Source: Paracholeplasma manati
GTDB lineage: Bacteria; Bacillota_I; Bacilli_A; Acholeplasmatales; UBA5453
DNA length: 64,000 nt
Reading direction: 5' to 3'
NCBI RefSeq assembly: GCF_025742995.1
Contig: NZ_JAOVQM010000002.1
Span: 1-64,000, forward strand
Notes under the pieces: generated by a model
Database searches by the model: none
The model's input: the letters and a program-made list of their open reading frames with translations, nothing else
What the model was told of the DNA's origin: nothing
Part shown: piece by piece, positions 24,262 through 25,452 of the stretch
Layout: every line of letters begins with the position of its first letter
Position numbering within the stretch: position 1 is the first letter of the stretch
Translations under genes and position numbers: made by a program

Positions 24262-24300
24262 AACGATAGAAATCAGTTTGATCTCTATCGTTATTTTTTT
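24262..24300. terminator. Bidirectional terminator between GH20 operon and trx genes
   Basis: AACGATAGA at 24262-24270 pairs with TCTATCGTT at 24284-24292. On the plus strand it is followed by ATTTTTTT. On the minus strand it is followed by a T-run (AAAAAA at 24258-24263 on the plus strand). It overlaps the stop codon of the minus-strand reductase gene. Confidence 0.88.
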
Positions 24301-25139
24301 AGTTGTTTTTTAATCGCGATGGCCGCGTGCATCCCATCGGCTGCTGCTTTCGCAACTTGTAATACCCCACCGACGGTATCGCCTGCGGCGTATAACCCTT
24401 CGATGTTGGTCATGAAATTGTCATCGACAACAATGTTGGTGTTTTCAACAATCGCGCCAATACGTGTTGCGAATTCAACTGCACCAGGCGAACCTAACGC
24501 AATAAATATCCCTTCAACATCATATGAACCATTGGTTGTTACGATGGTGGTTGCTTTATCTTCGTCACCGGTGATCTCCGTGATTTGTTCATGAACGACT
24601 GGATAATCCACGTCGACAGTCAAAGCATTTCCGTTGGTGAAGATTTGAATGTCTTCCGTTAGAAACTCCATGTCTTTGAGTTCATGTAACATATACTCAT
24701 TATAACCAATGAGTGCGAGTTTTTTCTTTCTGAAGAAGAACCCATCACAGGTCACACAAAAGCTGATGCCTTTACCGCGATATTTTTGAAACCCTTTAAT
24801 CTTTAATGTGGTTCTTGGTTTACCCGTAGCGAGTAATACGGTTTTACCTTCATAGACACCTTTTTTAGTGGTGACTGTAAAATGTTCATACTTGTCAATA
24901 GCGATGACTTCATCATGTAAAACGTCGATGCCCAATTCATTGGCTTGTTTTACCCCGCGCTCAATGAGCTCAGTGCCAGTAATTCCCCCAGGAAAGCCAT
25001 AGTAATTGTCAATAACCACCCCGTCATAGAGTGATCCATTGTCTTTACCAATGACTAAAACGTTCTTGTTAGAACGCTTGAGGTAAATCGCGGCTGAGAT
25101 CCCTGAAGGACCCTTACCGATAATGATTGTATCGAACAT
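24291..25139 (-). CDS. Thioredoxin reductase-like flavoprotein, FFTR type
   Basis: 282 aa, shorter than NADPH-dependent TrxB (about 310). The FAD motif GKGPSGISAAIYL and the C-terminal GLYAAGDTVGG are intact, and the redox pair is CVTC in SFCVTCDGFFFRKKK. The NADPH motif normally reading GGGxSAxEEA is replaced by IGYNEYMLHEL, and the HRR phosphate-binding motif is missing. These changes match ferredoxin-linked flavin thioredoxin reductases of Clostridium, where ferredoxin rather than NADPH supplies electrons. It lies one base downstream of trxA on the minus strand. The electron donor is an inference; a degenerate NADPH enzyme is the alternative. Confidence 0.85.
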   Translation of the reverse strand: MFDTIIIGKGPSGISAAIYLKRSNKNVLVIGKDNGSLYDGVVIDNYYGFPGGITGTELIERGVKQANELGIDVLHDEVIAIDKYEHFTVTTKKGVYEGKTVLLATGKPRTTLKIKGFQKYRGKGISFCVTCDGFFFRKKKLALIGYNEYMLHELKDMEFLTEDIQIFTNGNALTVDVDYPVVHEQITEITGDEDKATTIVTTNGSYDVEGIFIALGSPGAVEFATRIGAIVENTNIVVDDNFMTNIEGLYAAGDTVGGVLQVAKAAADGMHAAIAIKKQLKK

Positions 25140-25140
25140 C

Positions 25141-25452
25141 TTAAACGCCTAGAGCTTTTCTAAGTTCGTCTTTTGAGCGTACGCCAATGATGGAGTTTAC
25201 AACTTTACCACCCTTAAACACCAAAACGGTTGGGATGGACATGATTCTAAATTGGTTTGCAAGTTCTGCTTGTTCGTCGACATTTACTTTGCCAACCACT
25301 GCTAAACCTTTAACTTCTTCGGATAAAGATTCAACGATGGGTCCTAACATTTGGCAAGGACGGCACCATGCTGCCCAGAAATCCACTAAAACAGGTTCAC
25401 TGGATTCCAAAACAACGCTTTTAAAATTTTCTTTGGTAATAGCTATAGCCAT
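25141..25452 (-). CDS. trxA: Thioredoxin with WCRPC active site
   Basis: 103 aa, standard length. Thioredoxin reduces protein disulphides and ribonucleotide reductase. The active site reads WAAWCRPCQMLGP, so Arg replaces the usual Gly of WCGPC. The conserved MSIPTVLVFKGGK with its cis-Pro is present. Shine-Dalgarno AGGAGG precedes the start. It forms an operon with the reductase, the natural partner. The CRPC variant may change redox potential or partner choice. Confidence 0.95.
   Translation of the reverse strand: MAIAITKENFKSVVLESSEPVLVDFWAAWCRPCQMLGPIVESLSEEVKGLAVVGKVNVDEQAELANQFRIMSIPTVLVFKGGKVVNSIIGVRSKDELRKALGV

Follow-up and report, generated by a model that had tools for sequence, protein, structure and literature searches.

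A trxA-linked, putative TRi-type thioredoxin reductase in Paracholeplasma manati and its mollicute order

The reductase gene and its locus

The window analyzed here is a 64,000-nucleotide stretch of the Paracholeplasma manati genome (NCBI RefSeq assembly GCF_025742995.1, contig NZ_JAOVQM010000002.1, positions 1 to 64,000). Three features on its minus strand make up the locus under study:

24262..24292, minus strand: terminator-like stem-loop of 14 pairs with a T run, from a consensus scan only
24291..25139, minus strand: putative TRi-type thioredoxin reductase (P0001), 282 aa, with an FAD domain and a CVTC redox disulfide
25141..25452, minus strand: trxA, thioredoxin of 103 aa with a WCRPC active site (TIGR01068, 117.3 bits, above its cut-off)

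The trxA gene lies upstream of the reductase gene with a gap of 1 nt and is presumed to be the first gene of a two-gene unit, the members of which are probably cotranscribed. By consensus scan, the stem-loop is directly 3′ of the reductase stop codon, while a promoter scan at the locus performed no better than chance. The reductase reading frame contains no internal stops under translation table 11, and no codon in it is read differently under table 4.

By profile, the predicted protein is a low-molecular-weight flavin thioredoxin reductase, with a score of 181.7 bits against NCBIfam TRX_reduct (TIGR01292) that falls well short of the 343.45 bits set as its equivalog cut-off. Both the FAD motif (GKGPSG, residues 8 to 13) and the CVTC pair (residues 128 to 131) are intact, as the sequence-only reading of this DNA had described, and a C-terminal AAGD motif is present. 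In an alignment of 84 proteins, IGYNEYMLHEL (residues 144 to 154) occupies the position of the GGGxxAxEEA pyrophosphate motif and IFTNGN (residues 166 to 171) that of HRRxxxR, with TNGN (residues 168 to 171) in place of HRRD; the loss of both NADPH motifs noted in that reading is thereby confirmed. The thioredoxin contact residues of TRi, G(R/K)G and FF, are present in the same alignment (GKG ... CVTCDGFFF). The motif replacement is due neither to chance nor to sequencing error, since 91 of the 160 genomes in the order contain an ortholog, the frame is open in every listed case, and the alignment shows the replacement motifs to be conserved.

Relationship to TRi, FFTR, and NADPH-dependent enzymes

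Valette et al. (2017, PMC5627308) defined TRi by a degenerate pyrophosphate motif together with TQ/NGK replacing HRRD. The EYxLHE and TNG residues, previously taken to match clostridial FFTR enzymes, proved to be consensus residues of TRi proteins from Clostridia and elsewhere (e.g., GSGEYALHEA and LLTNG), whereas FFTRs carry other residues at the same sites (e.g., GYNKEAESE ... YKD) and GxPYQ near the C terminus. After TNG, the P. manati protein has N, versus the K of the published motif (17 sequences); because tree-supported TRi members outside the order have A, E, Q, or R at this position, the K does not define the wider TRi clade.

Among proteins of known structure, the best sequence match was DvTRi of Desulfovibrio vulgaris (PDB 5nii; 152.8 bits, E 1e-43), ahead of the clostridial FFTR structures 6gna and 6gnd (122 and 117 bits, respectively) and of NADPH-dependent TrxB proteins (NTRs). 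A tree of 82 rows joined the TRi proteins, including DvTRi and the P. manati reductase, with support of 98/99 and separated the FFTR rows, this reductase not among them, by a branch with 100/100 support. Within the TRi group, the reductase fell inside a 30-row subclade (100/99) that comprises the order of the window, further members of the class, and one Anaeroplasmataceae record (L176), and the TRi rows outside the order came from Clostridia, Fibrobacter, Treponema, and other class members. A Candidatus Woesearchaeota record (L178:5001-5891) also encodes a TRi-like protein with IFTNG, which groups with DvTRi. In a 51-row tree, which leaves out most long or odd branches and was picked after the 82-row outcome had been seen, the mollicute and TRi rows formed one side of a branch (100/98), with the FFTR rows separate at 100/99 and the NTR rows separate at 100/99.

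Forcing the mollicute rows together with FFTR was rejected by the approximately unbiased (AU) test on 51 rows (p-AU 0.009), as was forcing them with NTR (p-AU 0.008), whereas the 82 rows, which include long branches, were compatible with the FFTR grouping (p-AU 0.15). With the two AU tests in disagreement, the trees favor TRi placement strongly without settling it, and the assignment therefore leans in part on the motifs and on the structural match. A template-free AlphaFold model of the reductase (pLDDT 91.3) superposed on 5nii with a TM score of 0.90 and an rmsd of 2.4, compared with 0.73 to 0.75 for the nearest FFTRs (6gna and 6gnd) and approximately 0.58 for NTRs, in which the domains adopt a different rotation. 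As 5nii had been public long before, this likeness may partly reflect recall of training data. Together, the sequence, motif, tree, and fold comparisons support assignment of the predicted reductase to the TRi clade of low-molecular-weight flavin thioredoxin reductases.

Two other identities were considered and set aside. An NTR is discounted by the loss of both GGGxxAxE and HRRxxxR and by the separate NTR clade, the tree having placed the reductase elsewhere, and a clostridial FFTR by differing motifs and by a phylogeny that groups the protein with TRi, subject to the two p values above. Given the loss of both binding motifs and the kinship to DvTRi, which is reduced by neither NADPH nor NADH (PMC5627308), the reductase is probably independent of NAD(P)H.

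Distribution, trxA linkage, and candidate carriers

Across the order, a small-genome genus (g15), which we take to be phytoplasma-like, had an ortholog in none of its 29 genomes. This genus and the Anaeroplasmataceae record nested in the subclade are grounds for regarding the order as Acholeplasmatales-like. The trxA gene is directly upstream of the reductase gene in 46 of the 50 loci read; in most of them the two genes overlap by 4 bases or lie a few bases apart. The count includes L035, as well as L058/L059, whose partner thioredoxins have TCKSC or ACKSC. TrxA is the probable substrate of the reductase. Partner thioredoxins in genus g5 (L058, L059, L061, L062, L064, and L066) display TCKSC, ACKSC, WCKSC, WCRSC, WCKGC, and WCRGC, without the usual proline. 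The ortholog is missing from some g20 genomes, and the four loci read from such genomes (L149 to L152) all carry genuine FFTRs, the FFTR call for the ~285-aa matches of this genus resting on these four loci; their FFTR genes adjoin a glutathione-peroxidase-like gene and, where seen, trxA.

Family and pattern searches, the only means by which carriers were sought, recovered three candidate components of an electron supply in the P. manati genome:

C5:26213-29692: PFOR
L146:2617-2793, at G000:C3:219116-219292: 2[4Fe-4S] ferredoxin
L145:5917-6330, at G000:C1:430916-431329: short flavodoxin, ~5 kb upstream of the rnf operon

The same genome also encodes a VOR/KOR-like cluster, an rnf operon, and a YumC-like FNR. 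Rnf genes have been noted in Acholeplasma in a review (PMC5861303). The RnfB at the end of the P. manati operon (L145:17167-17478, G000:C1) is 103 aa long, matches the first ~80 of 190 profile positions, and lacks the ferredoxin-like domains; besides rnf, there is an Nqr-like cluster with an NqrF-type protein (L273, G000:C3:118500-121500). A second thioredoxin, with the usual WCGPC, is encoded beside a mutS2-like gene (L252, G000:C3:177124-177414). The canonical trxB (L004:1453-2367, G000:C1), beside a whiA-like gene, keeps GGGNS and has lost HRRxxxR (VQNL or VQDM ... LT), a state also read in eight relatives of this type (L258 to L264 and L271). The canonical trxB product of the order may therefore use NADH, and the order may be without a classical NADPH-dependent TrxB.

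A single carrier that co-occurs with the reductase across the whole order was looked for in 160 genomes and not found. Either PFOR or a flavodoxin of the families searched was present in 90 of the 91 enzyme-carrying genomes, the exception being 64% complete. Fifteen enzyme-carrying genomes, several of them more than 90% complete, were without a short flavodoxin of the families searched (PF00258 or PF12682), and 14 of these have PFOR. Conversely, ten genomes of genera g5 to g7 have the enzyme and a short flavodoxin and are without PFOR. No free ferredoxin was found in these ten by the CxxCxxCxxxCP pattern, which altered cluster motifs would escape, or by Fer4_15 and Fer2 searches. Where the frames of pattern matches were fetched and read, the matches belonged to an RnfC pair (~432-aa frames) or a QueG-like site (~303-aa frames) or met an in-frame stop; Fer4_15 gave no match, and Fer2 matched only in ~360-aa frames, the one such frame read (from the P. 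manati genome) lying within the Nqr-like cluster. A YumC-like FNR was detected at E < 1e-70 in nine of the ten. Co-occurrence of carrier and enzyme is weak evidence, since genomes that lack the enzyme commonly have PFOR and flavodoxin too. Among about two dozen TRi loci outside the order, adjacency to a flavodoxin gene was clear only in another genome of the class (L161), where a flavodoxin-domain gene (PF12724, 56 bits) immediately precedes the TRi gene, and weak in a further one (L157), where the preceding flavodoxin-domain gene scored 20.9 bits, below the cut-off.

Electron supply and comparison with known systems

We propose, with a probability of roughly 0.72, that the gene encodes a TRi-type reductase that works independently of NAD(P)H, receives its electrons from flavodoxin or ferredoxin as a low-potential one-electron carrier, and reduces its own TrxA. 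The steps are drawn by analogy from work on DvTRi and FFTR (PMC5627308, PMC12796991). The carrier, flavodoxin or ferredoxin depending on the genome, would reduce the FAD in two one-electron steps; a domain rotation would then bring the CVTC disulfide to the flavin, electrons would pass to it, and the resulting dithiol would turn outward to reduce the TrxA encoded just upstream. In P. manati, reduced carrier could come from PFOR, the YumC-like FNR, or Rnf. That the donor is a one-electron carrier is itself a probable rather than a direct reading, and a carrier differing by genome is favored because no single one is universal and yet nearly every enzyme-carrying genome has PFOR or a searched flavodoxin.

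The choice of carrier separates two narrower readings. The physiological donor could be flavodoxin specifically, for all TRi enzymes including this one, making the reductase a flavodoxin-dependent thioredoxin reductase. The ten g5 to g7 genomes and their FNR point this way, as do the loci at which a TRi gene follows a flavodoxin-domain gene and the judgment of Valette et al. (PMC5627308) that, for DvTRi, ferredoxin is unlikely and flavodoxin possible. Such exclusivity is nonetheless doubtful, as 15 enzyme-carrying genomes have no short flavodoxin of the searched families, all but one of them having PFOR, and linkage to flavodoxin was seen at only two of the loci outside the order. A reductase specific for ferredoxin, in effect a functional FFTR, was the view of the sequence-only reading. 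A search of the P. manati genome did reveal a ferredoxin and a ferredoxin-reducing enzyme, with the VOR/KOR-like cluster in addition, and the GYN at the pyrophosphate site is common to the reductase and 6gna; ferredoxin is accordingly a possible donor in this genome. Specificity for it is rather unlikely, however, given the position of the protein outside the FFTR clade in both trees, the missing FFTR residues, and the g5 to g7 genomes, which carry the enzyme and in which neither PFOR nor free ferredoxin was found. Of that earlier view, then, the loss of the NADPH motifs stands, and the ferredoxin link is reduced to a possibility in P. manati that finds no counterpart in those other enzyme-carrying genomes.

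Departures from the proposed chemistry at either end appear much less probable. Residual use of NADH through a degenerate Rossmann site would fit a lineage whose canonical TrxB has lost HRRxxxR and keeps GGGNSAVEE, but in the reductase the GGGxxA motif is gone as well, and DvTRi, with its better preserved GEGxxA motif, accepts neither NADH nor NADPH (PMC5627308); we regard it as very unlikely. Equally improbable is a flavoprotein acting on some disulfide outside thioredoxin: the four loci without trxA directly upstream would allow it, while the linkage at the remaining 46 and the retained GKG and FF contacts argue against it.

The preferred reading, a TRi-type enzyme fed by either carrier, bears on the TRi group at large. 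A literature search found no identification of the TRi electron donor after 2017, and a search for ferredoxin- or flavodoxin-linked thioredoxin reductases of Mollicutes or Acholeplasma brought up no study that bears on this enzyme; nor was an earlier report of TRi in this mollicute group found in the literature examined. TRi thus appears as a common, trxA-linked enzyme of a mollicute order, part of which offers a natural subtraction, with enzyme and flavodoxin present and PFOR and free ferredoxin not found, that leaves a small number of candidate donor proteins. We tentatively suggest, at less than even odds, that flavodoxin, either by itself or interchangeably with ferredoxin, is the reductant sought for the group. 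If so, genera of the g5 to g7 type (enzyme and flavodoxin, no ferredoxin detected) would run NADPH to FNR to flavodoxin to TRi to TrxA. The case illustrates how a thioredoxin system can be uncoupled from NADPH.

Of the systems described so far, DvTRi is the closest. Once artificially reduced, it reduces thioredoxin 1, and no physiological reductant was identified for it (PMC5627308). The mollicute reductase shares its clade, the degenerate pyrophosphate motif, T-N/Q-G for HRR, the GKG and FF thioredoxin contacts, and the modeled domain arrangement (TM 0.90). The two differ in sequence (~32% identity), in TNGN versus TQGK, and in gene context, DvTRi being monocistronic and the mollicute enzyme encoded with trxA. 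They differ also in host, as all 17 TRi published in 2017 came from Deltaproteobacteria and Clostridia (PMC5627308). Clostridial FFTRs (6gna to 6gnd; C. difficile TrxB1, PMC10880999) resemble the mollicute protein in the loss of NAD(P)H motifs, the CxxC, a similar length, and a gene often beside trxA; they form a separate clade, with other residues at the pseudo-NADPH site and near the C terminus and a more distant fold match (TM 0.73 to 0.75 for 6gna/6gnd). NTRs share the fold, the FAD motif, and the CxxC, but they keep the GGGxxAxE and HRRxxxR motifs that the mollicute reductase has lost and constitute a clade of their own (100/99, 51 rows).
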